DNA of 64,000 nt from an uncultured Aliiroseovarius sp. (GTDB lineage Bacteria > Pseudomonadota > Alphaproteobacteria > Rhodobacterales > Rhodobacteraceae). The position numbers and the translations under genes were made by a program. Below, in pieces: positions 28,499 to 54,731 of this stretch. The notes beneath the pieces were generated by a model. The model made no database searches. It was not told the DNA's origin and saw only the letters and a list, made by a program, of their open reading frames with translations. Numbering within the stretch: the first letter of the stretch is position 1; every line of letters starts with the position of its first letter. The stretch is from assembly GCF_947497285.1 (NCBI RefSeq), contig NZ_CANMFT010000009.1, forward strand, positions 1 through 64,000, in the 5' to 3' direction.

Positions 28499-28750
28499 AC
28501 CCCGGACTTCTCGAGCCGCCGATGGGGGTTCGCATGGCGCGACCAAACCGGCGTCCATTTTACGATTGCGTCATCGGTGATGCATTCATCACCTGTTACA
28601 ATGGCGTCGATGGAAAGATCCTTGATCAGGGCGAAAATGCGCGAGGTCACCCCACCGGTCAGTGCAAGTATCTGCTTGAGTGACTTGACCTTCAGATTGG
28701 ATTTCTTCTCGAGGGGCATTGCCGCGATGAGTGTCTGGATCATGGCGGAA
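28495..28750 (-). pseudogene. tniB: C-terminal remnant of TniB (AAA ATPase)
   Basis: About 82 codons ending at 28495: AAMPLEKKSNLKVKSLKQIL, LTGGVTSRIFALIKDLSIDA, CITDDAIVKW. This is the sensor-2/C-terminal part of TniB. The Walker motifs and most of the protein are missing, replaced at about 28745-28750 by the Crp/Fnr gene. The ATG at 28743 falls inside the original coding sequence and is not a real start. Confidence 0.75.
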
Positions 28751-31348: not shown

Positions 31349-31768
31349 TTACTGCTTGGCATCATGTGTGTTCGAGTGGCGATCTTTGCCGCTCAACTCT
31401 TCCAGGATTGGACAGTCGGGGCGATGATCACCGGCACACTCTTCAGACAGGCGCGTGAGCGTGGCGTGCATGGCCTGCAGGTCGGCGATCTTGGCCTCAA
31501 TTTCATTGAGATGTTTTCCGGTGACTTTCTTGACCTCTGCACTGGCGCGGGACTTGTCCTCGTAAAGCGCAAGCAGCGTCCGGCAATCTTCAATGGTGAA
31601 GCCCAAAGCGCGCGCACGTGCCAGAAAGGTCAGTTTGTGAACATCGGCATCGTTAAATACCCGATATCCGTTCGTTTCACGCTTGGGTTTGACCAGACTG
31701 ATGTCCTCATAATACCGGATCGTCTTTGCGGGCAGGCCGGACTGGCGTGCAACATCTCCAATGTTCAT
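31349..31768 (-). CDS. cueR: CueR/HmrR-type copper-responsive MerR regulator
   Basis: 139 residues. MerR HTH at the N-terminus (MNIGDVARQSGLPAKTIRYY), dimerisation helix, and the C-terminal Cu(I)-binding loop ECAGDHRPDCPIL, whose two Cys are spaced as in CueR. It twists promoters with 19-bp spacers to activate copper export genes. Operators of the right form are present at 34321, 34390, 40400 and 55452. Confidence 0.94.
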   Translation of the reverse strand: MNIGDVARQSGLPAKTIRYYEDISLVKPKRETNGYRVFNDADVHKLTFLARARALGFTIEDCRTLLALYEDKSRASAEVKKVTGKHLNEIEAKIADLQAMHATLTRLSEECAGDHRPDCPILEELSGKDRHSNTHDAKQ

Positions 31769-31779: not shown

Positions 31780-34290
31780 TTATTCCGCCGGGGCGGGAAC
31801 CGCTTGCACGGCTTCCCTACCCCTGGTTTCATTTTCGTCAAGAAGTGGTGCCACGCGGCGCAGTCTCAGGGCGTTCGTCAGAACAAATACCGAAGAAAGC
31901 GCCATCGCACCTGCTGCCAGAACCGGCGAAAGCATCAGCCCGAACGCCGGGTACAAAACGCCCGCGGCCACCGGGATCAGCGCGGTATTGTAACTGAACG
32001 CCCAGAACAGGTTCTGACGGATGTTACGCATCGTGCGCGTTGAAACTTCGAACGCATTGACCACGCCTCGCAGGTCGCCGGACATGAGAACAACATCGGC
32101 GGATTCGATGGCGACATCTGTTCCGGTCCCGATGGCGATGCCCACATCCGCATGGGCGAGCGCCGGGGCATCGTTTATGCCGTCACCTACGAAAGCGATT
32201 TTCTGCCCGCCTGCCCTGAGCCGGTCGAGTGCTTCGACTTTTCCGTCCGGCAGCACACCCGCAACGACATGATCGATTCCGGTTTCCGCCGCGATCGCAT
32301 CGGCTGTCTGCTGTTTGTCACCGGTAATCATCGCCACTTTCAAGCCTTGGCGATGCAGCGCTTCGATTGCTTCGCGGCTGCTGGCTTTTACAGGGTCAGA
32401 GACCCCGATTACGGCAGCGATCCGTCCTCCGATTGCAGCATAAAGCGCCGTGCGTCCACGTTTCGCCAGATCGATTTCGGCTTCTGCGAGCGTTCCCGGG
32501 TCAATCCCTTCACGAAGCATGAACCTGTCGGCCCCGACCAGAACTTCGACACCGTCCACATCTGCTTTCACACCATAGCCCGTGACGGACTGAAACCCGG
32601 AGGCTTTGACATCAGCAGCCTTCTCGACTAGCGCCGCGCGTACAATCGCCTGGGCGATCGGATGCTCGGACTTTTCTTCGACCGCCGCGACTTGCGCCAG
32701 CACCGCTGTACGCTGAAACCCGTCTGTCAGGATGACATCGGTAAGTTCGGGGCGGCCTTGCGTAACAGTGCCGGTCTTGTCGAGCGCCACAACCCCGACC
32801 GAGGTTAGCTGTTGCAGGGCATCCCCCTTGCGAAACAAAACGCCCATTTCGGCCGCGCGCCCGGTGCCCACCATGATTGAAGTCGGCGTGGCCAGCCCCA
32901 TCGCGCACGGGCATGCTATGATCAGAACCGACACCCCGGCAACCAACGCAAAGGTAAGCGCCGGATCTGGCCCCACAAACAGCCAGACAAGGACTGTCAG
33001 CAACGCAACCCCCATGACCGCGGGAACAAACCAGAGGGTGATCCGGTCCACGAGCCCCTGAATCGGAAGTTTCGCGCCCTGCGCCTCTTCTACCATCCGG
33101 ATAATCTGTGCCAGCGTAGTGTCCGCCCCAACGCGTGTGGCGCGAAATTGGATACTCCCAACTCCGTTGACCGTCCCACCAGTAACCGCGTCACCCGGCG
33201 CCTTTGCCACGGGAACCGGCTCGCCGGTGATCATGCTTTCGTCAAGGTGGCTCACGCCATCTGTGACTTCGCCGTCCACGGCAATGCGCTCTCCGGGGCG
33301 CACTTGAACCGTATCGCCAACCCTCAGTTCTTCGATGGCCAACTCAATCGGTTCTCCATCCCGAAGAACCCGCGCCGTGCGGGCCTGCAGGCCCAGGAGT
33401 TTCTGTATCGCGGCGCCAGTGCGTCCTTTTGCACGCGCCTCCAGATACCGGCCGACTAATATCAGCACGACGATGACCGCCGCCGCCTCAAAATACACCG
33501 CCCGCACCGATGCAGGAAGAACTGCGGGCAGGAACGTCGCAACCACCGAATAAGCATAGGCTGCACCTGTACCGACCGCGACAAGGCTGTTCATGTCAGG
33601 CGCACCCTTCAAAAGCGAAGGAAAGCCCTTGAGATAGAAAAACCGACCCGGCCCCAACAAAACCGCCGTGGTCAGGGCGAACTGAATCAGCCAGCTTGTC
33701 TGGTGGCCGATCGCGCGACCGATCCATTCATGCATGCCTGGAACAAGATGCGCGCCCATTTCGAGCAGAAACACCGGCAGTGCCAAAGACGCCGCCAGGA
33801 TCGTTCGTCGGGCGATTTCACGAGCCTCTTCTTCCTTGCGGGCAGCACGATCCAACGACGCATCCGCCTCGGCAATCTCGGCTGGATAACCAGCCTGTGT
33901 AGCGGCTTTGGCAAGCGCCGCAGCATCCGTTGCTCCCTCAAGGTAGGAAATAGTGGCAGTCTCCGACGCGAGGTTAACGTTCACGTCGAGAACGCCAGGC
34001 ACGGCGGCCAGCGCCTTGTCAACGCGGCCAACGCAGGACGCGCAGGTCATCGAGGCGACATTGAGCGTTACACTGGCGCGACGTGCTGGATAACCCGCCT
34101 CGTCAAGTGTCCCTGCGATTTCGCGCAGCCGTTCCGGCGCATCGACTGACACACGGGCGGTCTCATTGGCCAGATTTACCGAAACATCGTCCACGCCCTC
34201 CAGGGAACCAAGCGCGCGATCCACGCGCCCGACACAGGACGCACAGGTCATCGATTCAATGGACAGCGTTGCGCTTGTTGGGTTGGTCAT
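31780..34290 (-). CDS. copA: Cu(I)-exporting P1B-type ATPase
   Basis: 836 residues with two N-terminal HMA domains (each with MTCASC, near residues 15 and 85), eight membrane helices, the actuator ITGEPVP, membrane metal site [10 protein letters not shown], phosphorylation site [15 protein letters not shown] and [10 protein letters not shown]. It pumps Cu(I) from cytoplasm to periplasm. First gene of copA-cueR-mco, with a CueR-type promoter just upstream. Confidence 0.97.
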
Positions 34291-34450: not shown

Positions 34451-34651
34451 ATGGAATTCAGTGTTCCCGAAATGAGCTGCGGGCATTGCACGGCCGCAAT
34501 TGAAAAAGCCGTCAAGGATGTAGATCCAGCGGCAACGGTTAATTGCGATCTCGACACCCGTCGTGTGGCCGTTGATACCTCCCTTTCACAGGCGGATGTG
34601 AGCCTGGCGATCAAAGCGGCAGGGTACGAGTCTGAACCTGCCGCTGCTTGA
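34451..34651 (+). CDS. copZ: CopZ-type copper chaperone
   Basis: 66 residues, a single HMA domain with the metal site EMSCGHCTAAIEKA at about residue 7-20 and the usual ferredoxin-like pattern ending in IKAAGYESE. It carries Cu(I) in the cytoplasm to CopA or CueR. Divergent from copA, sharing the regulatory gap. A hairpin follows the gene. Confidence 0.93.
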   Translation: MEFSVPEMSCGHCTAAIEKAVKDVDPAATVNCDLDTRRVAVDTSLSQADVSLAIKAAGYESEPAAA

Positions 34652-34697: not shown

Positions 34698-35432
34698 TCA
34701 CTCGTCCCGGCCGAACCGGGCGTCGGAAACATAGATCTCCAGTTCGGATTGCTCCACGAAACCTGGTACCAAAGCATCACCAATCACGAATGATGGCGTA
34801 CCGTTGAAACCTAGGGCCTGTGTCAGGCGCATGGAAGACGCAATGTGCTCTTGCACTTCCGGTGCCTCCATGTCCCGACGAAGCTGGCCGATATCAAGAC
34901 CCACCTCTTTCGCGATGCGCAGAACCGATGCCTCTTCGGCGCGGCCGCTCATCCCCATCATGGCCCAGTGGAATTCTTCGTATTTGCCCTGGTTGCGCGC
35001 GGCCAGGGCTGCTTTGGCCGCAAACACTGATCCGTCCCCCAAGATCGGCCACTCTCGGTAGACAAGCCGCACATTCGGGTCGCCATCAAGCAGGCCCTGA
35101 ACTTGCGGCATGGCCCTGCGGCAGAAAGAACAATTGTAATCGAAGAACTCAACAACCGTCACATCTCCATCCGGATTACCTAGAACCGGTGCATTGGGGT
35201 CTTGTTCCAAAAGGTTCCTTTGGTTGATCAGAACCTCAGCTTGCGCAGATGCTTGGGCGCCTGCCTGCTGTTGTTCAAGGATGGCGACCGCCTCCATCAC
35301 GATTTGCGGATTTGCGCGGATTGTCTCAAGAACCAGCTCTCGTACGCGCGCTTCATCCAGTCCATCGGCATAGGCCGTGAAAGGTGCCATGATTGCCAGC
35401 GTAAGCGCCGCAATTCCTTGTCTGAATCTCAT
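34698..35432 (-). CDS. DsbA/ScsC-like periplasmic thiol oxidoreductase
   Basis: 244 residues from ATG 35432 (GAGGAAAC ribosome site). Signal peptide to about residue 23 (TAYADG), a helical N-terminal dimerisation-like region, then a thioredoxin-fold DsbA domain with active site FFDYNCSFCRRAMP, and cis-Pro loop NGTPSFVIG. It handles disulfides of secreted proteins. Last gene of the eight-gene unit, 1 bp after the cytochrome gene and before the terminator. Confidence 0.9.
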   Translation of the reverse strand: MRFRQGIAALTLAIMAPFTAYADGLDEARVRELVLETIRANPQIVMEAVAILEQQQAGAQASAQAEVLINQRNLLEQDPNAPVLGNPDGDVTVVEFFDYNCSFCRRAMPQVQGLLDGDPNVRLVYREWPILGDGSVFAAKAALAARNQGKYEEFHWAMMGMSGRAEEASVLRIAKEVGLDIGQLRRDMEAPEVQEHIASSMRLTQALGFNGTPSFVIGDALVPGFVEQSELEIYVSDARFGRDE

Positions 35433-35433
35433 T

Positions 35434-35916
35434 TCAGTTTCCTCCCCGTTCATTATCGAAACGTGTTCGTTCAGCCTGGAGCTGACGCTGACGCTCAGGC
35501 CAGGTTGATTGGATAAACGCTAGAATGCTCCAGATTTCTTCGTCGCCCAGATCATCGCCAAATCCCGGCATGCCGCTGTCAAACTCAACCCCTTGGTCGG
35601 CCAAAACAGCTTTCCCGCCACGCTTCGTGTAGTCAAAAAGCATTCGATCTGCGTGGTGCCATGTGTGCCCGGTCTCATCATGCGGAGGGGCGGGCAATCG
35701 CCCGTCCTCTCCCGGTGAGCGCCAGTCTTGTTGCCCCTCGAGATTATCGCCATGGCATGACGCGCAATACTCGCCATACAAAGCCTGTCCAACTTGGATG
35801 TCTGGTTCGTTGGGAGCGGTTATGGATTGGGGGCTGCTTTCTTGCGAGACAACCCACCCGGTCGCTCCTATGAGGACGATAGCCGCCGCACCGAGCAAAA
35901 TGGTTGGTTTGTTCAT
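35434..35916 (-). CDS. Membrane-anchored monohaem cytochrome c
   Basis: 160 residues from ATG 35916, which overlaps the oxidase stop (ATGA). N-terminal hydrophobic anchor or signal (about 5-24), haem motif CASCH at about residue 53, and a probable axial Met in SGMPGFGDDL. Could pass electrons to or from the multicopper oxidase encoded immediately upstream. Confidence 0.88.
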   Translation of the reverse strand: MNKPTILLGAAAIVLIGATGWVVSQESSPQSITAPNEPDIQVGQALYGEYCASCHGDNLEGQQDWRSPGEDGRLPAPPHDETGHTWHHADRMLFDYTKRGGKAVLADQGVEFDSGMPGFGDDLGDEEIWSILAFIQSTWPERQRQLQAERTRFDNERGGN

Positions 35917-37307
35917 GATACGTCGATCCATGTCATCATGCCCGAAGCCGCATGTGAGAGCATGTGGCAGTGGAAAAGCCACTTGCCCGGGTTGTCCGCG
36001 ACAAATGCGATTTCGCGCGTTTCACCGCCAAACATCAAAACCGTATCCCGCAAAGGCCCTACCGAACCATCCTTCAGCAACTCACGAAAATGCATGCCAT
36101 GAAGATGCATCGCGTGCGGAAACGACGTGTCATTGTAAATTTCCAGACGTGCGGTTTCTCGACGCGATAAACGGGCAAGTGGAGCGTCGGTCATGCCGAC
36201 CGCCCCGTTGAATGCCCAGAACTGGTTGGCCTGCGCGAGTTGGCGAAAGGAATTGCGCTCACCGTTTAGCTCTGCGGCATTCAGGCCACCCATCGCCCCA
36301 CCTTCCATGTTCAGGCGCAACCGTCGTGCTGTTTCAACACCCTCTATTTCCATGTTCGGGTTGGGCGGAAGTGGCACCGGATCAGCGCGCGACGTTGCAG
36401 CCGCGTCGCCGGCAACCGTGAAAGTCGTTTGCGAATACTGCTGCTGGTCATCAATTCGGACGAGATGAGCCATATCTCCGGACTCGGCAACAACATCAAC
36501 GAAAAGATCGACCCGCTCTCCCGGGGACAGCAAGAATGCCCCTTCAACCAACTCCGGCTTTGCCAAAGGCATACCGTCGTAAGCCATCACCCAACCTTTC
36601 AACCCAGCAAGGCCCAGTTCGAAAATCCGGGCGTTCGCCGCGTTGATCAAGCGCAAGCGAAGTCGCTCGTTGCGCTTGACTGGCAATGTGAAACCGGACG
36701 TGCCATTGGTCGCTATGTAATTGCCCCGCCGGCCCGCATGACTGCGATCGTGCGGAGCCTCAAATTCCGGATCGATTTGGGCCGTTTTCGGGTCAAGAAG
36801 CCAATCATCAAGTATCAGCACCTCGTCACGGTCAACGTCCGCCGCAACCGGTTCTTCGACAATCAACGCACCATAAAGCCCTCTGGCAACCTGTTCAAAA
36901 GAGCGATTATGAGCATGAAACCAGAAAGTTCCCGCATCAGGGGCAACGAAATCGTAGTCAAAGCTTTTTCCCGGCTCCACCGCATCTTGGGTGAGACCTG
37001 CAACTCCGTCCATAGCATTGTCGATCCGAAGCCCATGCCAATGGACAGAGCTTGCTTGCGGCAGCTCGTTGACAAACCGTCTCGCAACGCGCTCACCTTG
37101 TTTTGCCCGGATCGCAGGTCCCGGCATTTGCCCGTCATATCCCCAAATCTCAGTCTGCGGATACGCTGACGGCGCCAACTGTACTCTAGCTGGTCGAGCC
37201 GTCATCACGGCCATCTCTTCCGAAGCAGCAAATCCCGCATTCGGCAGTGCTCCGAGTAATCCCACTGCGCCGCTTGCTTGCAGAAATTCCCGCCGTGTTT
37301 GTGGCAT
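35913..37307 (-). CDS. Second multicopper oxidase, Tat-exported
   Basis: 464 residues with Tat signal MPQTRREFLQASGAVG. Copper ligand motifs: VHWHGLRID, FWFHAHNRS, FPHAMHLHGMHF and FHCHMLSHAASGMM. It lacks the long Met-rich inserts of the first oxidase and belongs to the shorter laccase-like group. Co-translated with cytochrome c genes on both sides, so its electron partner may be a cytochrome. 48 bp after the dihaem cytochrome gene. Confidence 0.92.
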   Translation of the reverse strand: MPQTRREFLQASGAVGLLGALPNAGFAASEEMAVMTARPARVQLAPSAYPQTEIWGYDGQMPGPAIRAKQGERVARRFVNELPQASSVHWHGLRIDNAMDGVAGLTQDAVEPGKSFDYDFVAPDAGTFWFHAHNRSFEQVARGLYGALIVEEPVAADVDRDEVLILDDWLLDPKTAQIDPEFEAPHDRSHAGRRGNYIATNGTSGFTLPVKRNERLRLRLINAANARIFELGLAGLKGWVMAYDGMPLAKPELVEGAFLLSPGERVDLFVDVVAESGDMAHLVRIDDQQQYSQTTFTVAGDAAATSRADPVPLPPNPNMEIEGVETARRLRLNMEGGAMGGLNAAELNGERNSFRQLAQANQFWAFNGAVGMTDAPLARLSRRETARLEIYNDTSFPHAMHLHGMHFRELLKDGSVGPLRDTVLMFGGETREIAFVADNPGKWLFHCHMLSHAASGMMTWIDVS

Positions 37308-37355
37308 GTCGTCCCTTTCGTTTTTGCGGGCAGTCTGGGACCGCCCACAATCTTG

Positions 37356-38255
37356 TCACCCACCAGAATGATCATCCATCAAATAGGTTGCGATGGCCTG
37401 TCGATCTGCATCCGTCAGGAATTGCGTTCCTTGAAGAACAACCTCACCCATTGAACCACCGAAGGCGTCTCCGCTGGGCGTAATTCCCGTCTTCAGGGCG
37501 TAGGCGAGCGCATCCACTGTCCAGTCACGAGACTGGAGCGTTTCATGGTCGATCGCCGGCGCTTTGTTGCCTCCTGGAAGAGATGGGTTGCCGGCGAAAT
37601 GCTCGTCATCGGAGTTTCGAGCGCCAAGGATGTTTCTGCCTGTGTGGCAGGCCGCGCAATGCGTCGCTCCTTCGACGAGTTCCCGCCCACGGTTCCAGAC
37701 AAGGTCGTTACCTTCTATCGGGGCTGTCCGAGGTGGCTCAAGAAATGCCGCGCGCCACAGTTTCAGACCCCATCGTTGATTAAACGGAAACGCCATTTGA
37801 TGACTTGGGGCCGGTTGAGACACCGCAGGGACGGTCTGAAAGGCCGCCCAAAGATCTGCAATGTCCTGATCTGTGAAATTCGCATAAAACGGATAGGTGA
37901 AGGCCGGGTAGTACGGCTCTCCCTCGGGCGAGATGCCCTGCCGAACCGCTTTTGCAAACTCCTCGATTGTCCAATCACCGATGCCACGCTCCGGATCGGT
38001 GGTCAGGTTTGCGGAAAAGAGTGCCCCGAAGGGCGTGTCCAACTTCACACCACCCGCAAGTGGAGCGCCGCGGTCCTCAAAATCAGTGTGGCACGCAATG
38101 CAACCGCTTGCACGCGCGAGATAGGCGCCCCGATCCACGTCACCTATCAACTCGATTGGATCGGGTTTCAGGCCTATCGGCCAAATCACCAGTGTTCCAA
38201 GCCCAACGATGCCCAGTAACGCTACGCCGGAACCAAATAAGACAATTCGCTTCAT
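37356..38255 (-). CDS. Dihaem cytochrome c
   Basis: 299 residues from ATG 38255, 1 bp after the preceding stop. N-terminal membrane anchor (VLFGSGVALLGIVGLGTLVI) and two haem sites, CIACH at about residue 50 and CAACH at about 200. It looks like the dihaem subunits that serve alcohol or aldehyde dehydrogenases and other periplasmic oxidases. Here the neighbour is a multicopper oxidase. Confidence 0.9.
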   Translation of the reverse strand: MKRIVLFGSGVALLGIVGLGTLVIWPIGLKPDPIELIGDVDRGAYLARASGCIACHTDFEDRGAPLAGGVKLDTPFGALFSANLTTDPERGIGDWTIEEFAKAVRQGISPEGEPYYPAFTYPFYANFTDQDIADLWAAFQTVPAVSQPAPSHQMAFPFNQRWGLKLWRAAFLEPPRTAPIEGNDLVWNRGRELVEGATHCAACHTGRNILGARNSDDEHFAGNPSLPGGNKAPAIDHETLQSRDWTVDALAYALKTGITPSGDAFGGSMGEVVLQGTQFLTDADRQAIATYLMDDHSGG

Positions 38256-38256
38256 C

Positions 38257-38835
38257 TTATTTTGACTCCGCACGGAATTTTGTATGACAGGCCGAGCAAA
38301 CCTGACTGACCATTGCGAAGGCGCCATCCACCGGCATACCCGCAATGTCGTCAGCCGTCATCGACCCCTGCATCATTCCACCGCCCATCATGGTGCCGCC
38401 ACCCATCATCGAACTGCCGCCCATCATTGCGCCAGAAGACATGCCACTTTGGGTGCCTGCCATCATGCCGTTGTTGGCCGCTCTCGCCAGTCCGTCAGCA
38501 TAGATCTCAAGTTGCTCGGCCAATTCGGTGAATTCGTTCCAGTTGGTCCAGACCGCATCCCTGGTTTCCGACGGGGCACCGCCACTGCCTTCCGGGAAAA
38601 GCTCTGTGAGATCAGCGCCTGCGTGATTTCCAATCGTTTTTGCTACCGAACGAACAGTGGCGGCATTGAATTCGATTTCGCCACGCATCATTGGGGTGAT
38701 CGCTTTAACAGCTTTTCCCATGGCGCTCATGGCATCCATGCGTTCTTTGACAATTCCGGTAGCGCCGCCATGAGCGTAGGCGGCGAGCGCGGCCGAGGTG
38801 AAAACAAAAGCGGTAATTACGGTGAGTTTTTTCAT
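38257..38835 (-). CDS. Cytochrome c' / c-556 family protein with Met-rich insert
   Basis: 192 residues from ATG 38835 (AAGGAC ribosome site). Signal peptide to about residue 20. Four-helix cytochrome c' pattern with the haem site CSACHTKFRAES at the very C-terminus. Before it lies an unusual Met/Gly-rich insert of about 35 residues (GMMAGTQSGMSSGAMMGG and repeats of MMGGG) that resembles copper-binding Met motifs. This insert is not typical for cytochrome c'. Confidence 0.88.
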   Translation of the reverse strand: MKKLTVITAFVFTSAALAAYAHGGATGIVKERMDAMSAMGKAVKAITPMMRGEIEFNAATVRSVAKTIGNHAGADLTELFPEGSGGAPSETRDAVWTNWNEFTELAEQLEIYADGLARAANNGMMAGTQSGMSSGAMMGGSSMMGGGTMMGGGMMQGSMTADDIAGMPVDGAFAMVSQVCSACHTKFRAESK

Positions 38836-38875
38836 CGGTTTGGTCCTTGATCTGTATGAGTTGATGTATCTGCAA

Positions 38876-39226
38876 TCAGGACCGAACGCGCGGAGGTGGT
38901 GGATCAGACAAAGCCAACCAGCTTTCGCGTGAATGGCTGGTGAAAGAAAATGGCAAGGGGGTTTCGGCACTTGCGACTGTAAAGTTCGGTTGCAGCGTTA
39001 GAACGGCGGTCACGTAACAGTCCAAGCCGGGATGGCAGTGACCAGAAATCTCCGCGAAATCTGCGTCATGCGCACCCCGGTGGGACTTCTCGTGCTCTCC
39101 GGCAATGGCGAATTCAACTTCGGGATGCGCGCGCACCGCTTCAGGAAGCGCCAGAAAAACACCAAGCACAGTCACAACGACAACACGGACTAGAAGACTT
39201 ACCTGATTTCCTCTCGAAAGATGCAT
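38876..39226 (-). CDS. Small secreted protein of the copper-cytochrome operon, unknown
   Basis: 116 residues with a hydrophobic signal (VVVVTVLGVFLALPEAVRA). The mature part is His-rich (EHEKSHRGAHDADF) with a Cys pair (GHCHPGLDCY) and ends SDPPPPRVRS, a Pro-rich tail seen in small proteins beside copper genes. ATG overlaps the stop of the cytochrome gene upstream (TGATG). Possible copper-binding protein, unproven. Confidence 0.65.
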   Translation of the reverse strand: MHLSRGNQVSLLVRVVVVTVLGVFLALPEAVRAHPEVEFAIAGEHEKSHRGAHDADFAEISGHCHPGLDCYVTAVLTLQPNFTVASAETPLPFSFTSHSRESWLALSDPPPPRVRS

Positions 39227-39684
39227 CAGTTGATCCCGTTCTCCCGTTGAAGCTCGCGCACGTAGCGCGCAATGTATTTCACGTCTGCTTGGGTCAGCCC
39301 TTTGACCGGAGGCATGTTTCCGAACTTCCAGTGGTGCGCGCGCACGCCGTTTTTAGCGGCCAAAACGAATGCCATGTCTGAATGGTGGCTTGGCTCGTAA
39401 ATCTTGTGAACCAACGGAGGTGCGACACCGTTCTGGCCTGCCGCATTTTCACCGTGGCAGTCCGCGCATTTTGCCTCGAATGCACGCTTGCCGAACTCCG
39501 CTTCAGCAGACAAATTGGCTGGCATGCGAAGCTCAACGATTGGTTCGCCCTGGGCGATCCGGCTTGTGTCCGGTGTCACCATCGAATGACCCTGAGTGGC
39601 GGGTGCGGGTTGCAGAAACTGCAACACTGCCACGGCCAAACCCGCAAGCAAGACCCCTCCAACGAACAGACCAGGTTTATTCAT
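39226..39684 (-). CDS. Monohaem cytochrome c
   Basis: 152 residues from ATG 39684 (AAAAGGACGACAA upstream). N-terminal membrane anchor (FVGGVLLAGLAVAVLQFL), haem site CADCHGENAAG at about residue 75 and a C-terminal axial Met in FGNMPPVKGL. A small electron carrier, 34 bp after the L,D-transpeptidase gene. Confidence 0.9.
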   Translation of the reverse strand: MNKPGLFVGGVLLAGLAVAVLQFLQPAPATQGHSMVTPDTSRIAQGEPIVELRMPANLSAEAEFGKRAFEAKCADCHGENAAGQNGVAPPLVHKIYEPSHHSDMAFVLAAKNGVRAHHWKFGNMPPVKGLTQADVKYIARYVRELQRENGIN

Positions 39685-39718
39685 TTGTCGTCCTTTTCCC
39701 GTCTTGGGGCGGTTTTCT

Positions 39719-40288
39719 TCAGATAAGCTTGACTTGTGTCCCGATCGGCGTCCGCTCGTACACTTCCTCGATTTGCTCGTTGAAAAGACCAATGCATCCG
39801 TTCGACGATTTTCGCCCGATTTTGCGTGTGTCCTGGGTTCCGTGGATCCGGTAGTATTGCCACGAAAGGTAGAGCGCCCGTGTCCCGAGAGGGTTTATCG
39901 GATCGCCGCCTTTGACGTATGCGGGCCATTCAGGATTGCGCTCACGCATGGATGGGGTTGGAGCCCAGCCCGGATTTTTTCGCTTTTCGACAACTTCGGT
40001 GTAGCCGCGCTTTGTCAGCTCGTCCGTCAGTGGCACCGACGTGGGGTAGACTCGCATCTCCCCGTCCGTTGTCCAATGCTGGAGAACCTTGGTGGTTGTG
40101 TCGGACACGATTACTCCCTTGCCCAAGCCGTCGAAATGATCCCGCCAGTCGTGCAATGCGAACGACGATATGTTGCGGCGCACAGGTTCAGATTCCTGCG
40201 CCCGCACTATCGAGGGAGCGGCAAGGAATGCTGACGCTCCAAAGAACAAAGTTCGTCTGGTGATCTGGATTGATCTGAACCTGCCCAT
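39719..40288 (-). CDS. L,D-transpeptidase (YkuD family), Tat-exported
   Basis: 189 residues, twin-arginine signal (ITRRTLFFGASAFLA). YkuD catalytic region with RIHGTQDT, then SSNGCIGL, giving the His and the active Cys. It makes 3-3 crosslinks in peptidoglycan or attaches proteins to it. First gene of the eight-gene minus-strand unit, with GGAGG before the ATG. One of three paralogues in the window. Confidence 0.92.
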   Translation of the reverse strand: MGRFRSIQITRRTLFFGASAFLAAPSIVRAQESEPVRRNISSFALHDWRDHFDGLGKGVIVSDTTTKVLQHWTTDGEMRVYPTSVPLTDELTKRGYTEVVEKRKNPGWAPTPSMRERNPEWPAYVKGGDPINPLGTRALYLSWQYYRIHGTQDTRKIGRKSSNGCIGLFNEQIEEVYERTPIGTQVKLI

Positions 40289-40399
40289 GTCTTGCCTCCA
40301 ATTAGTAGGATCATCCGCTTAGGTCTTCGGATTTTTTCTACTAGAAGACTGCTCGACATCAACCTGACAAGGCAGTGATTTTTGTATCCATATGTAACC

Positions 40400-40430
40400 T
40401 TGACCTTACCATATGTGAGGCCTGCAAATG
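40400..40430 (+). promoter_or_regulatory. CueR-type operator in the divergent gap before the DUF2933 gene
   Basis: TTGACC (40400-40405), 19-bp spacer with the dyad CCTTAC-CATAT-GTGAGG, then CAAATG (40425-40430). The -10 is poor. A direct repeat CCATATGTRA (40388 and 40409) overlaps it. It lies between the minus-strand eight-gene unit and the plus-strand DUF2933 operon, so it might serve both. Confidence 0.5.
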
Positions 40431-40459: not shown

Positions 40460-40765
40460 ATGACTAAAAAATCCAGCCCAACCGGGTCAGGCCACTCAAA
40501 GATTATGCACTACGGCATGATGGTGTGCTGTGCCGTTATGCTATTGCCGATTGCAGGCTATTTTGTTGCTGGAGGAACGATTGGCGGGCTTTGGGGCAAA
40601 TCAGCGGTCTTTCTGCCGCTTGTGCTTTGTGTCGGGGCGCATTTCGTGATGCATAAGATGATGGGGAAATCCTGTCATGGGGCTTCAGAGGACGAAGGAA
40701 CGACAAAGGCGATTCCATTACTCACGGACCAACGAATGGAAAAATCCCAACGCCAAGGGGTGTGA
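40460..40765 (+). CDS. Small two-helix membrane protein, DUF2933-like
   Basis: 101 residues from ATG 40460 (GAGGAATCG upstream). Two membrane segments (MMVCCAVMLLPIAGYFV and FLPLVLCVGAHFVMH) with His/Met at the second (VMHKMMGKSCHG), the pattern of DUF2933 proteins commonly found beside copper or heavy-metal ATPases. Function unknown. Confidence 0.72.
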   Translation: MTKKSSPTGSGHSKIMHYGMMVCCAVMLLPIAGYFVAGGTIGGLWGKSAVFLPLVLCVGAHFVMHKMMGKSCHGASEDEGTTKAIPLLTDQRMEKSQRQGV

Positions 40766-41016: not shown

Positions 41017-41775
41017 ATGGCAAGCAGGCGTGGAGTTGTCTTTGGCATTGCGGCATTCGCAGCGGGTGTTATGTCCATTCGATACGCGCGATCATTTCTG
41101 GAACCTCTCCCCGAGTTTCAGGATTTGACCGATCCAGTTGGATTTCGAGAAATCTCTGGAGGTCCGTCATCAACCGGTTTTGATCCTTTTGTTGGTTTGG
41201 CTGATCCGAACGAGCGAACTAGGCTGCGCACTCCTAGTGATGTTCGGCAGAACCTCTGCAAGGCTCTTTTCGGGGAAACGGACGAAAACTTCGGTTTCGT
41301 TCCCTTGGCATCTTTCTCGGACTATTATTGTCCATATTGCCGGGTTCAGACAAAACGCTTGGCTGGTTTGGCGGAACAGCTGGGCGCTGGTGTTAAAGTT
41401 GTCTGGCACGAACTGCCTTTGCTTGGCGATACATCAATGCTCGCCGCAAAAGCTGCTTTGGCGGCGAAAAGGCAGGGTGCATACGTCCAATTCCACGAAC
41501 GTCTTCTTTCCAGCCCATTTCAGGCAACACCTGAGTACTTACAATTGCTCGCAGAGTCTCTTGACCTCGATCACGCACGCCTGGTTTCGGACATGGAAAG
41601 CAAGGATGTGTTGCAAGAGCTTGATACCAGCTCGATCTTATCTGAGATTTTCGGGTTTATCGGAACGCCCGCATTGGTGGTTGGCCGTACTGTCATTCAG
41701 GGCCAGATTTCCGATCGCAACCTACTGAAAATTATCGACCTGGAGCGCTCAGAAGGATGGGCACAGGTATGCTGA
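41017..41775 (+). CDS. DsbA-family thiol oxidoreductase
   Basis: 252 residues with an N-terminal membrane or signal segment (VVFGIAAFAAGVMS), active site SDYYCPYCRVQTKRL (CPYC) at about residue 104 and cis-Pro loop IGTPALVVG. The CPYC dipeptide differs from the CSFC of the other DsbA-like protein here. It overlaps the DsbD-like gene, its probable redox partner. Confidence 0.88.
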   Translation: MASRRGVVFGIAAFAAGVMSIRYARSFLEPLPEFQDLTDPVGFREISGGPSSTGFDPFVGLADPNERTRLRTPSDVRQNLCKALFGETDENFGFVPLASFSDYYCPYCRVQTKRLAGLAEQLGAGVKVVWHELPLLGDTSMLAAKAALAAKRQGAYVQFHERLLSSPFQATPEYLQLLAESLDLDHARLVSDMESKDVLQELDTSSILSEIFGFIGTPALVVGRTVIQGQISDRNLLKIIDLERSEGWAQVC

Positions 41776-43895
41776 TGGCGCGCAGCAAGTGCCAAGTCAT
41801 TCTTTTGGTTTTGACTTCAATTGTGTTTTCTGTGCTTCAAAATCACGCGGCACAGGCTGAGGTATCCGCCAAATTCAACTCTCCTGCTGTAACGGCGGCG
41901 CTCATTTCGGTCCAGAACGGTGTGGCCCCTGATGCGAACACAATATCTGCGGGGCTGGACCTAGACCTCGGTGAAGGCTGGAAGGCCTACTGGCGATCGC
42001 CAGGAGAGGTTGGTCTTCCTCCGGAAATCGACTGGAGCAGATCGCAGAACGTCGCGAATGTCAAAATGCTTTGGCCGGCACCAACCCGGTTCACGGCATT
42101 CGGGATCGAGAACTTCGGCTACAGCGATGAGGTCGTTTTCCCTCTGGAGGTTCAACTGGAGCAGCCAGGCAAACCCGTCTCCCTTTTTGCCAGGGTTTCT
42201 CTGCTGATCTGCTCGAATGTCTGTGTCCCGCAGAATTTCGAACTGTCGCTGACCCTTCCCTCGGGAATCGGAATTGATAATAAAAGCGCCAGCCGGCTGA
42301 GCGAATTTATTGCGCGGGTGCCGCTCGAAGAGAAGGATGCACAGCTGGAATCCGCCATTGCGCATGTTGATGACGGTTTTTCGGAATTGACGATTTCGGT
42401 AAAGGCCGCTGCGCCATTTCAGGCGCCTGACGTGTTCCCTGAACTCGGAACCGGCACCGCTCTTGGCAAACCTGACATTCGGCTGGGCGATCGCGGAACC
42501 CTGCTTTGGGCGCGCTTCACGGTGTTGTCATATGACGAGGAGCGCTCCAGGCCTCCGATCGTCACCGTTACTGATGGTGCCGGTCGCGCCTTCACCGTGA
42601 CCCCCGACCGGGTCGAGACGCAGCCCGCGCCGCCTTTCCGCCTCAATGTGCTTGGTCCCGGCATTGACCAACTCGCCTGGATCGCGCTGGTTGCGTTTCT
42701 TGGCGGGATGATCCTAAACGCCATGCCTTGCGTGCTTCCGGTCCTGTCGATCAAGCTTTCTTCCGCCCTCAAACAGCAGGGCCGTGACAAACAGGTAGTA
42801 CGTGGCGGATTTCTTGCGGCCGCTGCAGGCGTCATGGTGTTCATGTGGGGGCTTGCCGCCGTGCTTTTCCTGCTGCAACGCTTCGGAGTCATGGTCGGTT
42901 GGGGGCTTCAGTTTCAAAACCCCGTGTTCCTGGCCCTGATGTTCACCGTCCTGGCTGTGTTTTCGGCAAACCTTTTCGGGTTGTTCGAAATCGCTTTGCC
43001 ATCCGGCCTGCAGACGCGGCTCTCCAATACTGGCCGCAGGCATGGCTATACCTCCGACTTTTTCACAGGCTTGTTCGGCGCGGTTATGGCGACGCCGTGT
43101 TCAGCGCCATTTCTTGGTACCGCTATCGCCTTCGCGCTCGCTGGTCGTGGAACCGATCTGCTGATCGTTTTCACCTTTCTCGGTCTCGGGCTCGCCACAC
43201 CTTACCTGGTTGTCGCCGCATCCCCGCGCCTAGTGACCTTCCTGCCAAAGCCCGGCCGTTGGATGGTCGGATTGAAGCTTGTGTTGGGCCTGCTTCTGGT
43301 TGTCACCGCACTCTGGCTGTTTTGGGTTCTCACAGGCGTCGCCGGTACCCGGGCGGCGATTGCGGTTGCCGCCCTGTCAGCAGCCTTGATCCTGGTCCAG
43401 TCCCGCGGCGGCCTGTCACCCCGGCTGCGCTGGCCGGGAATCGCGGTGTTATCGATCCTGCCGCTCGTCGCATCCACCATGCTGGCGCAACCTGCCGCCA
43501 ACCACGTAAGCGCAACAACTCAGGAATGGACGGCATTCGACCGCGCCGAAATTGCCCGCCTGGTCTCTCGTGGCGAGGTGGTGTTTGTCGATGTCACCGC
43601 CGACTGGTGTTTGACCTGCAAAGCGAACAAGGCACTTGTTCTCGATCGCGAACCCGTCCTCCAGGCTCTGCGAAGTGATGATGTCACACAAATGCAAGCA
43701 GACTGGACACGGCCAAACGAGGCCATCTCGCGCTACTTGGAAGGTTTCAACCGCTTCGGCATTCCGTTTAACGCGGTCTACGGCCCGGGTGCCCCGAACG
43801 GGATCGTGTTGTCGGAGATTCTCTCGGCGGCTACCGTTCTCCAAGCTTTGGAAGATGCCCGTCTCGCAACGCCGGTTGCCGCGGCACAGAACTAA
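41757..43895 (+). CDS. DsbD/ScsB-like transmembrane thiol reductase
   Basis: 712 residues from ATG 41757. ATG 41769 or 41775 (the latter forming TGATG with the DsbA stop) are equally possible and all give a signal peptide ending AAQAE. N-terminal immunoglobulin-like domain with Cys in LLICSNVCVPQ; eight-helix membrane domain with the two reactive Cys in NAMPCVLPVL and MATPCSAPFLG; C-terminal thioredoxin with DWCLTCKANK. It carries electrons from cytoplasmic thioredoxin to periplasmic thiols. The ScsB type is linked to copper tolerance. Confidence 0.92.
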   Translation: MGTGMLMARSKCQVILLVLTSIVFSVLQNHAAQAEVSAKFNSPAVTAALISVQNGVAPDANTISAGLDLDLGEGWKAYWRSPGEVGLPPEIDWSRSQNVANVKMLWPAPTRFTAFGIENFGYSDEVVFPLEVQLEQPGKPVSLFARVSLLICSNVCVPQNFELSLTLPSGIGIDNKSASRLSEFIARVPLEEKDAQLESAIAHVDDGFSELTISVKAAAPFQAPDVFPELGTGTALGKPDIRLGDRGTLLWARFTVLSYDEERSRPPIVTVTDGAGRAFTVTPDRVETQPAPPFRLNVLGPGIDQLAWIALVAFLGGMILNAMPCVLPVLSIKLSSALKQQGRDKQVVRGGFLAAAAGVMVFMWGLAAVLFLLQRFGVMVGWGLQFQNPVFLALMFTVLAVFSANLFGLFEIALPSGLQTRLSNTGRRHGYTSDFFTGLFGAVMATPCSAPFLGTAIAFALAGRGTDLLIVFTFLGLGLATPYLVVAASPRLVTFLPKPGRWMVGLKLVLGLLLVVTALWLFWVLTGVAGTRAAIAVAALSAALILVQSRGGLSPRLRWPGIAVLSILPLVASTMLAQPAANHVSATTQEWTAFDRAEIARLVSRGEVVFVDVTADWCLTCKANKALVLDREPVLQALRSDDVTQMQADWTRPNEAISRYLEGFNRFGIPFNAVYGPGAPNGIVLSEILSAATVLQALEDARLATPVAAAQN

Positions 43896-44614: not shown

Positions 44615-45520
44615 TCAGTTTGCAGATCTGCCCAATGCCTTGCCTTCGCCCGCAGCGGCGCGCCAGATCAGCACCAACCCCACAGCGATCATCGGAAGCG
44701 TCAATGCTTGACCCTGTGTCAGCCCTAGATCGCCAATCTGCCAGGCAAACCCGGTCGGATTGCCCGCGCTGACAAACTGCGCGTCCGGCTGGCGTACGAA
44801 CTCGACAGTAAACCTCGCCAGACCATAGCCGGCAAAAAAGACACCCATCAATAATCCGGGCCTTCTGAACCCGGCCTTTCGAAACGCAAGCCAGATAATG
44901 ACCGTACCGAGCAGAATGCCCTCAAGCGCCGCTTCATAGAGCTGGGATGGGTGGCGGGCGCAGAGCTGCCCGATCTGCTGCCCGCAATCCTGCGCCGCCC
45001 GTCCGGGGAATACCACGCTCCAGGGCAAATCGGTGGGGCGGCCCCAAAGCTCGGCATTGATGAAATTGGCCACCCTGCCGAGGAACAGGCCCGGCGCCGT
45101 AATCAGCGCCAGCAGATCACCGGTCGAAAGTAGCGACAATTTTTGCCGCAATGCATAGACCAGGGCCACGATGGCAACGCCGAGAAGCCCGCCGTGAAAC
45201 GACATCCCGCCTTGCCAGATCTTCAAAATCGCCAGCGGATCGTTGGAAAACTGCCCGGGATTGTAGAACAGGACATATCCCATCCGGCCACCGAGGATGA
45301 TGCCCAGGATCAGGTAGGTGACCAGATCTTCGAACTGGTCGGGCTGCATCACAGGCTGGTCATTACGCCACATTTGCGGCCGCGCCAACACCACCTTGGC
45401 CAACCGCCAGGCAATAAGGATCCCAACGATATAGGCCAGGGCATACCATCTGAGGGCAACCTCAAAGCCAAAGACGTCGAATGCGAACAGTTCGGGGGAG
45501 ATGTCCGGAAAAGGGATCAT
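44615..45520 (-). CDS. lgt: Prolipoprotein diacylglyceryl transferase, probably an accessory copy
   Basis: 301 residues, seven membrane segments. Lgt signature [20 protein letters not shown], catalytic-region MSFHGGLLG, and [13 protein letters not shown]. It attaches diacylglycerol to lipobox Cys. Normally a single essential chromosomal gene, so a copy inside a metal island beside an L,D-transpeptidase is notable. Convergent with the DUF411 gene. Confidence 0.93.
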
Positions 45521-45616
45521 TTTGGTATGCCTATCGTTGCGTCGGCCCGAGTTGCCCGGTCAAAGCTGTTTCGGCTGAGGTCCATCTGGACCTCGGAAGT
45601 TCTTCAAAGCTCGACT

Positions 45617-46198
45617 TCAGGCGACGGGATGCAGAACCACGCGGGTTTCCATGGGAACACGGTTGTACAGATCGATAACCTGATCATTCACCAAACGCGC
45701 ACACCCGTTAGATACGCGGCGTGCCAGCGTCGAAGGTTCATTGGTCCCGTGAATCCGCAGATAGGTGTCGCCACGACCGGGCTGGAACAGATAAAGCGCC
45801 CGTGCGCCCAGCGGGTTGTTGAGACCACCGGGCAGCCCATTCGAAAGCCGCCCGTACCGGTTCGGTTCGCGCCTGATCATGTCGGGAGTGGGCCTCCAAT
45901 AGGGCCACTCTCTTTTCGCTCCGACAAAAAACTCGCCCGCCTCATAGAGCCCAGGTCGACCAATACCCACTGTGTATCTGAGGGCTTTCTTTTTCGGCAA
46001 CGTCCAGTAGAGCGCAAACTGGCCGGGATCGACATGGATTTCATTGGGCTCAAAATCCGTTTCGAGCCGGACCTCGCGGGGCATGAACGCTTCGGGCAAC
46101 TGGTAGTCCGGGATAATCTCGTCATGCGCCAGCAGGGGTGTTGCCGCAGCGAATGCCGACATTGCCATCCCGCCTTTCAGTAAATCACGCCGTTTCAT
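45617..46198 (-). CDS. L,D-transpeptidase (YkuD family)
   Basis: 193 residues with Tat-like signal MKRRDLLKGGMAMSAF. Catalytic region YLRIHGTNEP and RVSNGCARLVNDQVIDLY. The central WPYWRPTPDMIRREP and NPLGARALYLF blocks are shared with the other two paralogues. 4 bp after ccmI and 96 bp before lgt. Confidence 0.92.
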   Translation of the reverse strand: MKRRDLLKGGMAMSAFAAATPLLAHDEIIPDYQLPEAFMPREVRLETDFEPNEIHVDPGQFALYWTLPKKKALRYTVGIGRPGLYEAGEFFVGAKREWPYWRPTPDMIRREPNRYGRLSNGLPGGLNNPLGARALYLFQPGRGDTYLRIHGTNEPSTLARRVSNGCARLVNDQVIDLYNRVPMETRVVLHPVA

Positions 46199-46202: not shown

Positions 46203-47360
46203 CTATCCTTTCAATTCCGATAACGCGCGTTCGATCCTTTGTCGTCTCGGATCGGTTTCCGGTGCGTTCTGCAACAAGGCGCTCGCTTTCTCATATGCGG
46301 ATACTGCGTTATCGCGCTCGCCAAGCACGGTGTAGGCGTTTGCCAGCCTCATCCAGCCTTCCAGGTCGTCCGGCTCGTCTTCGAGACGGGATGCCAGGCG
46401 TTCAACCATGGACCGGATAAAGGCGGACCTGTCCTCTTCGGTCATGTCGCCAGCTGCCGCGACATCGTCCGCCGATGGTCCCGGGCCCGCTACCATCGGA
46501 GCAAAGCTGGCCAAGTTTACCGGGGCGCGGCCAATCTCGCTTCCAATTCGGTTCGCTTTGGCGACAAAGGTTTCCATCCAAGGCGCGAAACCCTCCGCTT
46601 CATTCAGGCGGCTGATCAACAGGTCATGTGCGTCCTTCGTTTTACCGGCCTGTTCCAATGAGACCGCCATGTAAAAGGCCGCTGCCGGATTGGCAGGGTC
46701 CAACCTGAACGCTTGGTCGATCGCCGACTGTGCCCGAGGCGTGACAATCCCAGCCTCTGCCATGACCAATGCTTCGGCAAGCCGCGACCAGGTTTCAGAT
46801 GTGGCACCTTCACGACGCGTGATGACGTCAAAGGCCTGAACGGCGTCACTGTGTTTCCCCATGCGCATATAGGTCTGCCCAAGCAGCATCCACCCGTCCG
46901 ATTGACCGCCATTTGGTTCGCTGGTCAGGCGTTCAAAAAGCTTCTGCGCCAAGTCAGCGATTTTTTGTTCTTCTTCGCGCTCGGCCTGAAGTGCTTCCAA
47001 CGCACGGCTTGATGAAACAGGAGTGCCGTTAATCGAATAGTATCCAATAGCCAGAATTGGAACGAACAACGCGGCCAAATACATGGCGGCGTTTCCATCG
47101 CCAGCTGATTGCGGGCCTGCGTCAGAGGTTTTACGCGACAACGCCAGGATTCGCCGCTTGATCTCCATCCTGGCGGCGTCGGCTTCACCCTCGGAAATCA
47201 CGCCGCGCTCATGGTCTCTTTGGACTTCGTCCAGCTGGTCCACCAATACCGCCGAGGTTCCATCCTCGGTGGCGACAACACCCTTGCCCTTTGCTAAAAG
47301 CGGCCAGGCTGCGAACAGCACCGCTATCAGGGTCATAAACCCGAAACCGGCCCAGATCAT
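46203..47360 (-). CDS. ccmI: CcmI cytochrome c biogenesis factor
   Basis: 385 residues. N-terminal membrane helix, cytoplasmic loop with DEVQRDHERGVISEGEADAA typical of CcmI, a second helix (AAMYLAALFVPILAIGYY) and a periplasmic TPR region (DGWMLLGQTYMRMGKHSDAV; LEGWMRLANAYTVLGERDNA). CcmI presents apocytochrome c to the CcmF/H haem lyase. Overlaps ccmH by 4 bp. Confidence 0.93.
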   Translation of the reverse strand: MIWAGFGFMTLIAVLFAAWPLLAKGKGVVATEDGTSAVLVDQLDEVQRDHERGVISEGEADAARMEIKRRILALSRKTSDAGPQSAGDGNAAMYLAALFVPILAIGYYSINGTPVSSSRALEALQAEREEEQKIADLAQKLFERLTSEPNGGQSDGWMLLGQTYMRMGKHSDAVQAFDVITRREGATSETWSRLAEALVMAEAGIVTPRAQSAIDQAFRLDPANPAAAFYMAVSLEQAGKTKDAHDLLISRLNEAEGFAPWMETFVAKANRIGSEIGRAPVNLASFAPMVAGPGPSADDVAAAGDMTEEDRSAFIRSMVERLASRLEDEPDDLEGWMRLANAYTVLGERDNAVSAYEKASALLQNAPETDPRRQRIERALSELKG

Positions 47361-47833
47361 GATGGATCTCCTGATTTTTCATTGTCGATAAACTTCGCCA
47401 CCTGACGCTCTTCGGCTTCTGTTAATTCAGGTAACGCGCTTTTCCGCCTGCCTCGCAGAACGATGTTCAGACCAAAGAGCAGAGCGATCAGCGTCAAGGC
47501 GATCGGTGTGCCCCACAAAGCGTAGGTCGACGGTTTGAATGGAGGCTTCAGCAGGACATAGTCGCCATAGCGTGCCTGGATGTAGGCCATCACCTGATTG
47601 TTGCTGTCTCCCTCCAGCAACCGTTCCCGGACCAGTAGCCTCAGATCTCTCGCGACGCCCGCGTTGGAACTGTCGATGTCCTGGTTTTGACAGACAACGC
47701 AGCGCAGATCCTTCGAGATAACGCGCGCCCGTTCCTCAAGCACCGGGTCAGCAAGCATTTCGTCGGGTTCCACCGCTTGCGCTGACAGCGGCAGAAGGAG
47801 CATGAAGACAAGCGGAACGACAAACCGATGCAT
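47357..47833 (-). CDS. ccmH: CcmH apocytochrome c thiol reductase subunit
   Basis: 158 residues, signal peptide ending AQAVEP, redox motif LRCVVCQNQDIDSSNAGVA at about residue 43, and a C-terminal membrane helix (LWGTPIALTLIALLFGLNIV). It keeps the CXXCH Cys of apocytochrome reduced. Stop and start overlap with its neighbours. Confidence 0.95.
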   Translation of the reverse strand: MHRFVVPLVFMLLLPLSAQAVEPDEMLADPVLEERARVISKDLRCVVCQNQDIDSSNAGVARDLRLLVRERLLEGDSNNQVMAYIQARYGDYVLLKPPFKPSTYALWGTPIALTLIALLFGLNIVLRGRRKSALPELTEAEERQVAKFIDNEKSGDPS

Positions 47834-48396
47834 TAGCTGTTCCTTTCCTCAAGCGCGCCAGCCTGAGTGAGCGCTTCACGGAACTTTGCAATGGCCTCAT
47901 CGCCCACGACCGGTCCGACATAGCGGAAAAGAACCGTGCCATCCGTTCCGATGATGAAACTTTCCGGAACACCGGAAATCCCCCACTCGATCCCGATCCT
48001 ACCGTTCAGGTCCGATCCGATCCGCTCGTACGGGTTTCCAAGATTGGCAAGCCAGCGCACCGCATCCTTGGGCTTATCCTTGTAATTGATCCCGAACAGC
48101 CGGATGCCATCGCGTTCGACCAGGTTGGTCAACACTGTATGCTCGGCGCGGCACGGAACGCACCATGAGGCAAACACGTTGAGCACGATCGGGCGATCAT
48201 GCCCGGTCAAATCGGCGCGCGACAATCCCGGTGTTTGCAGACCCTCAACCGCTGCAAGCTCGAACTCCGGCGCAGGCTGTTCAATAAGAACCGAAGGGAT
48301 CTCGCTTGGATCACGGTTTGGATTCAGACCCCAGAGGAAGAACCCTCCAAAGATCACAGCGATCACAAGGGGCGCAAAGGCAAGAATACGTTTCAT
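47833..48396 (-). CDS. ccmG: CcmG/DsbE thioredoxin-like protein
   Basis: 187 residues with an N-terminal membrane anchor and a TlpA/DsbE thioredoxin domain: VLNVFASWCVPCRAEH at about residue 80, and GVPESFIIGTDGTVLFRYVG. It supplies reductant to CcmH. 3 bp after ccmF. Confidence 0.95.
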   Translation of the reverse strand: MKRILAFAPLVIAVIFGGFFLWGLNPNRDPSEIPSVLIEQPAPEFELAAVEGLQTPGLSRADLTGHDRPIVLNVFASWCVPCRAEHTVLTNLVERDGIRLFGINYKDKPKDAVRWLANLGNPYERIGSDLNGRIGIEWGISGVPESFIIGTDGTVLFRYVGPVVGDEAIAKFREALTQAGALEERNS

Positions 48397-48399
48397 CTT

Positions 48400-54155: not shown

Positions 54156-54179
54156 TCGTTGTTAGGAGGACAATTCGCA

Positions 54180-54647: not shown

Positions 54648-54731
54648 AAAAAGCGATAAGGCGGCGAAGTACAAAGTTAAGAGGATAAAATCAAAAACCA
54701 GGGAAACAGGTTTAACAAGCAAATCCGACCC

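Follow-up and report, generated by a model that had tools for sequence, protein, structure and literature searches.

Described systems closest to the eight-gene unit

Periplasmic handling of Cu(I) is best known from oxidases that require O2 or from efflux, and the described systems closest to the locus considered here are CueO of the E. coli cue system, the Pco/Cop systems, the Scs system (ScsB/ScsC), Gig of Cupriavidus metallidurans and ncgABC-nirK of Nitrosomonas europaea. Here we describe a unit of eight minus-strand genes (positions 34698-40288) in a 64,000-nucleotide stretch from an uncultured Aliiroseovarius sp. (family Rhodobacteraceae; contig NZ_CANMFT010000009.1, positions 1 to 64,000; hereafter the window). 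In the direction of transcription, these genes encode a YkuD-family protein (ldt), a monohaem cytochrome c (cytA), a small exported-looking protein, a cytochrome c' with a Met-rich insert (c'), a dihaem cytochrome c (dih), a laccase-like multicopper oxidase, a second monohaem cytochrome c (cytB) and a DsbA/ScsC-like thiol oxidoreductase (dsbA). This copper-linked set of eight genes is conserved and often located on plasmids, and the pair formed by c' and dih is its steadiest part, the oxidase not being an obligate centre. As a copper-linked determinant the unit is of a known kind, of which its cytochrome core makes a novel form; a search of the literature (open papers, with most subscription papers outside its reach) found no description of an operon with this composition, in agreement with the initial annotation of the stretch, which had knowledge of no such system.

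Like CueO, the oxidase of the unit is a periplasmic multicopper oxidase with a twin-arginine translocation (Tat)-type signal and has CueR and CopA as neighbours; however, it lacks equivalents of the CueO residues D360, D439 and M441 and is tied to cytochromes, and a real CueO-like gene is located separately in the surrounding copper island (Table 1). The Pco/Cop systems share a Tat-type multicopper oxidase within copper islands, and the c'-dih pair can adjoin CopA/CopB, but the oxidase of the unit scores below the cut-off for TIGR01480 (PcoA/CopA, copper_res_A; 199.6 bits vs. 478.95) and CopB, CopC and CopD are absent from the unit. The locus resembles the Scs system in having a DsbA-like protein that bears the N-terminal domain of ScsC and, across a divergent promoter, a DsbD-like protein; in the island of the unit, however, these are distributed over two operons and combined with cytochromes and an oxidase. 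In ncgABC-nirK, a multicopper oxidase and mono- and dihaem cytochromes c are encoded by one operon, which is linked to NirK and nitrite tolerance and is not known to include a Met-rich c', YkuD or DsbA; its likeness to the unit is drawn from its description. Gig is likewise set apart by description rather than by sequence, the available part of that description not naming a c'-dih pair.

The gene arrangement given by the initial annotation was confirmed, as all eight open reading frames (ORFs) are present in the order it had listed, seven of them with Pfam support, and the four cytochrome genes carry five CxxCH motifs in total. Spacing is tight, with gaps of 1-48 bp and two overlaps (from ldt to dsbA, 34 bp, a 1 bp overlap, 40 bp, 1 bp, 48 bp, a 4 bp overlap and 1 bp). 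Folding also recovered the intrinsic terminator at 34658 (0 of 200 shuffles fold as well), a stem-loop that a simple hairpin scan with loops of 3-8 does not list.

A search of named genomes with the oxidase gave 196 relatives, of which the best 80 were kept (hereafter the 80 loci); this sample is biased to close relatives, and many of its loci are near-identical, forming 36 clusters at 93% identity. A search with dih of 390 genomes of the order Rhodobacterales gave matches in 93, and the best 30 loci, window included, were examined (hereafter the 30 dihaem loci; matches at 39-44% identity lie outside these). A further set of 63 loci is defined by the presence of ldt, cytA, c', dih, oxidase and dsbA.

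The c'-dih pair, the oxidase and the conserved gene set

The Met-rich c' gene was located directly before dih in all 30 dihaem loci, and the gene after dih was the oxidase in 26 and cytB in four of these loci, which are each 3-4 kb long and leave room for an oxidase farther away. Three plasmid regions carry c'-dih beside a PcoA/CopA-type oxidase and CopB, and the pair also occurs in plasmid copper regions with no oxidase next to it, none being annotated within 12.8 kb (as in L127). Because another gene can follow dih and a PcoA/CopA-type oxidase can take the place of the unit's own on plasmids, the oxidase was rejected as the fixed centre of the unit.

The c' of the unit departs from the usual compact length of cytochromes c' (a length without insert being typical of, not strictly defining for, these proteins) by a long Met-rich insert before the haem motif. 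Among the 30 dihaem loci, the 75 residues that precede CxxCH contain 7-15 Met, and 7-15 Met lie after residue 125 in 61 of 62 locus c' ORFs with CxxCH, the exception being the reduced locus L075. The CxxCH motif is placed at the C-terminal end in 62 of 63 locus ORFs (PF01322, 80.6 bits). The other c' of the host has no insert and, by the same counting rule, 2 Met. Two CxxCH motifs were present in dih in 64 of 64 locus ORFs, and dih gave a single match in the host genome, i.e., it has no second copy there. Its nearest PDB chains relate dih to the cytochrome subunits of sugar/alcohol dehydrogenases; such subunits of the AdhB type carry three haems, and a Pfam scan found no dehydrogenase catalytic subunit among the proteins of the unit.

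Several other arrangements of the pair were observed. In L122 (15352-16825) and L124 (5352-6825), a Met-rich c' and dih near CopA/CopB are followed by a sigma-70-family factor, and in L127, on a plasmid of Neotabrizicola shimadae (3091-11799), dih is followed by a penicillin-binding protein 2 and a ferric-reductase-like membrane protein. L112 (7057-10503) shows a run of four genes, in which cytB is followed by a c' that has no Met insert, a dihaem cytochrome and an oxidase.

Four H.H motifs were found in the oxidase ORFs of all 80 loci, and the copper ligands aligned with CueO H443, C500, H505 and M510 are kept in all 14 oxidases aligned (the window and 13 of the 80 loci). In the same 14 sequences, a gap, Thr and Phe stand at the positions of D360, D439 and M441, which we take to be the residues that bind substrate Cu(I) near the T1 site of CueO; the Met aligned with M355 is kept in 13. 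As these residues are absent, it appears unlikely that the oxidase of the unit acts on Cu(I) directly in the manner of CueO. The separate CueO-like gene of the island does keep the Met aligned with M441. The solved chain nearest to the oxidase of the unit is 4f7k, annotated as a laccase. In the available part of a report on T. mobilis BBCC367, a plasmid of which carries the unit, two further unnamed multicopper oxidases are expressed at 1 and 5 mM Cu, and these are not assigned to the unit's oxidase (PMC6308992).

The complete set of eight was found on one strand in 59 of the 80 loci and in the same order in 54 (14 clusters at 93% identity); this check of conserved co-occurrence, proposed with the initial annotation, excludes a gene order restricted to a single strain. 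The remaining five of the 59 loci have an extra oxidase-like stretch inserted and cytB placed behind dsbA. Overall, cytA was present in 76 and cytB in 73 of the 80 loci, with G.MP conserved in all 76 cytA ORFs and SGMP in all 73 cytB ORFs. The small protein retains C[HD][PS][GE].DC in 46 of 49 locus ORFs and is highly diverged (mean distance 0.74), yet its ratio of nonsynonymous to synonymous substitutions (dN/dS) is ~0.32. Across the eight genes, dN/dS ranged from 0.03 to 0.32 as compared to the closest relative (L001), and from 0.06 to 0.32 in six genes as compared to L002, the other two being saturated. Median gaps across loci are also short (a 4 bp overlap for oxidase/cytB, 2 bp for c'-dih and 1 bp for cytB-dsbA).

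Distances of the other genes were correlated with those of the oxidase (cytA and dih, 0.86; cytB, 0.83; small protein, 0.80; dsbA, 0.78; c', 0.73; ldt, 0.51), the lowest value suggesting that YkuD is the loosest member of the unit. Neighbours outside the unit are correlated too (0.69-0.92, from CopA at 0.69 to DsbD at 0.92), and this correlation thus has no power to set the unit apart. DNA matches to the unit were found in 244 plasmid records, 120 of them typed as conjugative; coverage in a single place exceeded 80% in 3 of the 244, so that most plasmid matches are distant or partial. Among 40 listed plasmid records, the annotations beneath the match include a copper or multicopper oxidase together with three or four cytochromes c in 39 (H31 being the one that uses other names), and in 36 both an L,D-transpeptidase and a DsbA family protein are named as well. 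The set is common on marine bacterial plasmids, also in culturable species, e.g., Dinoroseobacter shibae and Phaeobacter inhibens. For D. shibae, a plasmid gene for cytochrome c biogenesis has been reported to be hit by a transposon insertion (PMC4886583). A class-wide search gave eight more oxidase loci (seven from other families and one from the same family), two of which have a CxxCH ORF within ~1.5 kb.

The copper island, its envelope enzymes and upstream elements

Linkage of the unit to copper genes is well supported. In the set of 63 loci, CopZ was found in 60, CopA in 59, CueR in 59, DUF2933 in 61 and DsbD in 59, and copper genes flank the unit on both sides in most loci; in the window, the island also includes a DUF411 gene. 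The unit as initially delimited belongs to a larger island, often one with cytochrome c maturation genes of its own. CcmF-G-H-I occurred in seven of eight wide regions around the unit (six plasmids and L118) and were absent from L119, in which neither Ccm genes nor a matching ldt was found near the unit. Among 149 genomes of the family, the oxidase (at least 60% identity) was found in 15 and the island-type CcmF (at least 63%, the next match being at 57%) in 14, with both in 7 as compared to 1.4 expected (P = 5e-5, Fisher's exact test); these counts come from draft genomes, with identity cut-offs set after the gap in the list was visible. Eight oxidase genomes were without island-type CcmF, which indicates that the Ccm set accompanies the oxidase often but not always. 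Of the 23 CcmF matches listed on plasmids (at least 71.9%), 13 were also among the dih matches listed, ~7-17 kb apart, both lists being partial. The island copies of CcmF and Lgt are 53% and 56% identical, respectively, to another CcmF and another Lgt on contig C1.

For ldt, annotated initially as an L,D-transpeptidase, assignment to the YkuD family holds (PF03734, 79.2 bits vs. a cut-off of 23.4), but L,D-transpeptidase activity is not to be assumed, since the catalytic Arg after the active-site Cys, present in the three solved chains shown, is replaced by Gly167 in all 20 YkuD sequences aligned (19 of 66 locus ORFs and the window). R11, R12 and SNGCIGL are invariant in these 20 sequences; six of the 66 ORFs are without the motif, of which five are truncated or very short as called and one (L005) is cut but reads CIGL. 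We rejected the Arg-to-Gly change as an adaptation to copper, as a DNA pattern coding for SNGCIGL is common in the family (117 of 149 genomes, vs. 4 for a reversed control pattern, each match not being checked to be a YkuD) and as the host has chromosomal relatives of the Gly type that are 54-57% identical (C3:72134, and C1:523025, which reads SDGCIGL). DpaA, another YkuD-family protein without the Arg of L,D-transpeptidases, has been reported to be an amidase (PMC12729407); its likeness to the YkuD of the unit concerns this residue.

The spacer between ldt and DUF2933 contains a direct repeat of the form G[AT]TACA-N4-GATACA with a 10-bp period. Of the 66 loci with ldt, 62 have this repeat, at a distance of 88-118 bp before the gene in 61 and of 222 bp in the remaining one, and it also occurs in one of 14 loci without ldt; over the 80 loci, 0.06 are expected per strand, and none was found on the other strand. 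In 61 of the 66 loci, the repeat is fused to a AAGGTCAA element, which forms the -35 half of a CueR-like dyad directed towards DUF2933-DsbD, and a full CueR-like TTGACCTTCC..GGAAGG box facing ldt is present in eight loci. We infer that the direct repeat may be a response-regulator box, putatively bound by the OmpR-type regulator of the island; a response regulator is annotated in other regions around the unit too. A second copy of the repeat was observed in L085 (1941-1956), on the other strand and beside another heavy-metal P-type ATPase gene.

Elsewhere in the window, the region 54159-62823 encodes a rhodanese-like protein, a second heavy-metal P-type ATPase with YHS and HMBD domains, a cation diffusion facilitator, a third YkuD (59733-60275) and a second two-component system, and has a match to a CueR-like box at 55452. 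A TniQ-family protein (27707-28558), of a family usually linked to transposition, adjoins the copper island, and a VirB4-type ATPase (PF03135; 5609-7999) near the window start makes a type IV secretion/conjugation region likely there.

Table 1. Features of the eight-gene unit and of the copper island around it in the window
Feature	Position	Strand	Evidence and remarks
YkuD-family protein (ldt)	39719..40288	-	PF03734 E 6e-22; twin-Arg-type signal; active site SNGCIGL
Monohaem cytochrome c (cytA)	39226..39684	-	PF00034; N-terminal hydrophobic segment; CADCH; conserved G.MP
Small exported-looking protein	38876..39226	-	HCHPGLDC-type motif; PPPP tail; no Pfam family
Cytochrome c' with Met-rich insert before CxxCH	38257..38835	-	PF01322 E 2e-22
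Dihaem cytochrome c (dih)	37356..38255	-	PDB 8hdd_B E 3e-51, 7w2j_C, 8gy2_B
Laccase-like multicopper oxidase	35913..37307	-	Tat-type signal; PF07732/PF07731; 4f7k E 4e-119
Monohaem cytochrome c (cytB)	35434..35916	-	PF13442; CASCH; conserved SGMP
DsbA/ScsC-like thiol oxidoreductase (dsbA)	34698..35432 (or start at 35453)	-	PF01323; ScsC_N PF18312 E 6e-8
Intrinsic terminator stem-loop	34658..34685	-	folding -20.9 kcal/mol, z -4.5
Direct repeat GTTACATATGGATACA	40383..40398	-	110 bp upstream of ldt; 1 match vs. 0.07 expected in window
CueR/MerR-type dyad half TTGACCTT.. facing DUF2933-dsbD	40398..40421	+	degenerate in window
CopZ-like copper chaperone	34451..34651	+	HMA PF00403; convergent with operon
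CopA-like heavy-metal P-type ATPase	31780..34290	-	orthologues so annotated
CueR-like MerR-family regulator	31349..31768	-	orthologue named cueR
CueO-like multicopper oxidase with Met-rich segment	29879..31336	-	NF008205 E 3e-151, 505 bits vs. cut-off 525
DUF2933 membrane protein	40460..40765	+	PF11666; first gene across divergent promoter
Second DsbA-like protein and DsbD/ScsB-like reductase	41017..43895	+	
Lgt copy and second YkuD	44615..46198	-	YkuD PF03734; SNGCARL, Arg kept
CcmI, CcmH, CcmG, CcmF	46203..50400	-	accessory set for maturation of cytochromes c
Histidine kinase and OmpR-type response regulator	50789..52914	-	response regulator gene at 52192-52914

A proposed electron route and its alternatives

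We tentatively propose, at somewhat less than an even chance, that the unit is a mobile, probably copper-induced operon for envelope protection, which would relay electrons from Cu(I) to the Met-rich c', on to dih and then to the oxidase and O2 or to a cytochrome pool, accompanied by protective spare enzymes; copper induction and electron transfer are what we infer here from sequence. The Met-rich insert of the periplasmic c' would bind Cu(I), and the Cu(I) electron would pass from c' to dih, to the laccase-like oxidase and to O2. Where an oxidase is lacking, the anchored monohaem cytochromes would hand the electron on to the cytochrome c pool of respiration. The relay would turn Cu(I) into the less toxic Cu(II), and YkuD, DsbA/ScsC, the small His/Cys protein, Lgt and CcmFGHI would maintain wall, disulfide, lipoprotein and haem-attachment chemistry under copper. 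Typical cytochromes c can accept an electron from a couple at +160 mV. This is the value reported for the Cu(II)/Cu(I) couple (PMC7558416).

Several points weigh against the proposed relay. Although in a copper region, the c' of L127 has only 5 Met and is without MMG repeats. In L112, which is from another alphaproteobacterial family, the operon of cytB, c', dih and oxidase encodes a c' that has 2 Met and lacks the Met insert, and none of the island's copper genes was matched within the 18 kb of this locus; the core may thus have an older, different job. Seven loci of more distant oxidase relatives have zero or one cytochrome neighbour, and in the window the dyad in the ldt/DUF2933 spacer was not matched by the CueR-like pattern at 2 mismatches. 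Moreover, cytochromes c' usually have a lower potential than class I cytochromes, so that the first electron step may be uphill, and Met-rich segments can simply buffer Cu(I). Overall, we read the c'-dih pair as an older redox module that would have been adapted to copper later.

The operon might instead provide second copies of envelope pathways that are poisoned by copper, with its cytochromes replacing damaged ones and with no Cu(I)-oxidising chain, a reading that we consider possible but rather unlikely. It would fit Lgt, Ccm, Dsb and YkuD well, because each of these pathways is a reported target of copper, which has been found to inhibit L,D-transpeptidases, the Lgt step and disulfide formation (PMC6593411) as well as cytochrome c assembly (PMC6247083; PMC7558416). 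The other host copies of CcmF, Lgt and the Gly-type YkuD described above, the frequent presence of CcmFGHI around the unit and a variant that adds penicillin-binding protein 2 are in line with spare enzymes, whereas the absence of a second dih in the host, the lack of a Met-rich insert in the host's other c' and the fact that the oxidase is no CueO-type spare are not. Provision of spare enzymes and the relay may both be true.

It appears improbable that the oxidase serves as a genuine laccase with organic donors (e.g., algal phenolics or catechols), the cytochromes carrying the electrons from such oxidation and copper genes lying nearby since the enzyme needs copper. The laccase annotation of 4f7k, the missing Cu(I) residues of the CueO type, the dehydrogenase cytochromes nearest to dih and the existence of an operon without matching copper neighbours would agree with organic donors; the Met-rich c', the linkage to CueR, CopA and CopZ in most loci and the lack of a dehydrogenase catalytic subunit in the unit argue against them. 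We give even less credence to a flow in reverse, by which the cytochromes would deliver respiratory electrons to the oxidase, which would serve as a side terminal oxidase and remove O2 or radicals during copper stress, with c' possibly binding nitric oxide (NO). The c' family includes NO-binding proteins, and the frequency of cytA and cytB among the 80 loci is consistent with such a flow, which leaves unexplained the Met-rich insert and the dihaem loci with no oxidase following. A defence system was also considered and rejected, as a PADLOC scan of five of the eight proteins gave no match.

More far-reaching than the proposed relay is a doubtful but possible reading, based on these sequence comparisons, in which the c'-dih pair would be a new Cu(I):cytochrome c oxidoreductase that feeds the respiratory chain and detoxifies periplasmic copper even at O2 levels insufficient for cuprous oxidases, with multicopper oxidases as interchangeable exits and with a plasmid that often brings its own haem-attachment machinery, which would allow assembly of the pair while that of the host is being poisoned by copper. 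If true, this would explain copper tolerance at low oxygen and would tie detoxification to respiration. It would also help to explain the presence of cytochrome maturation, lipoprotein and cell-wall genes on marine copper plasmids.

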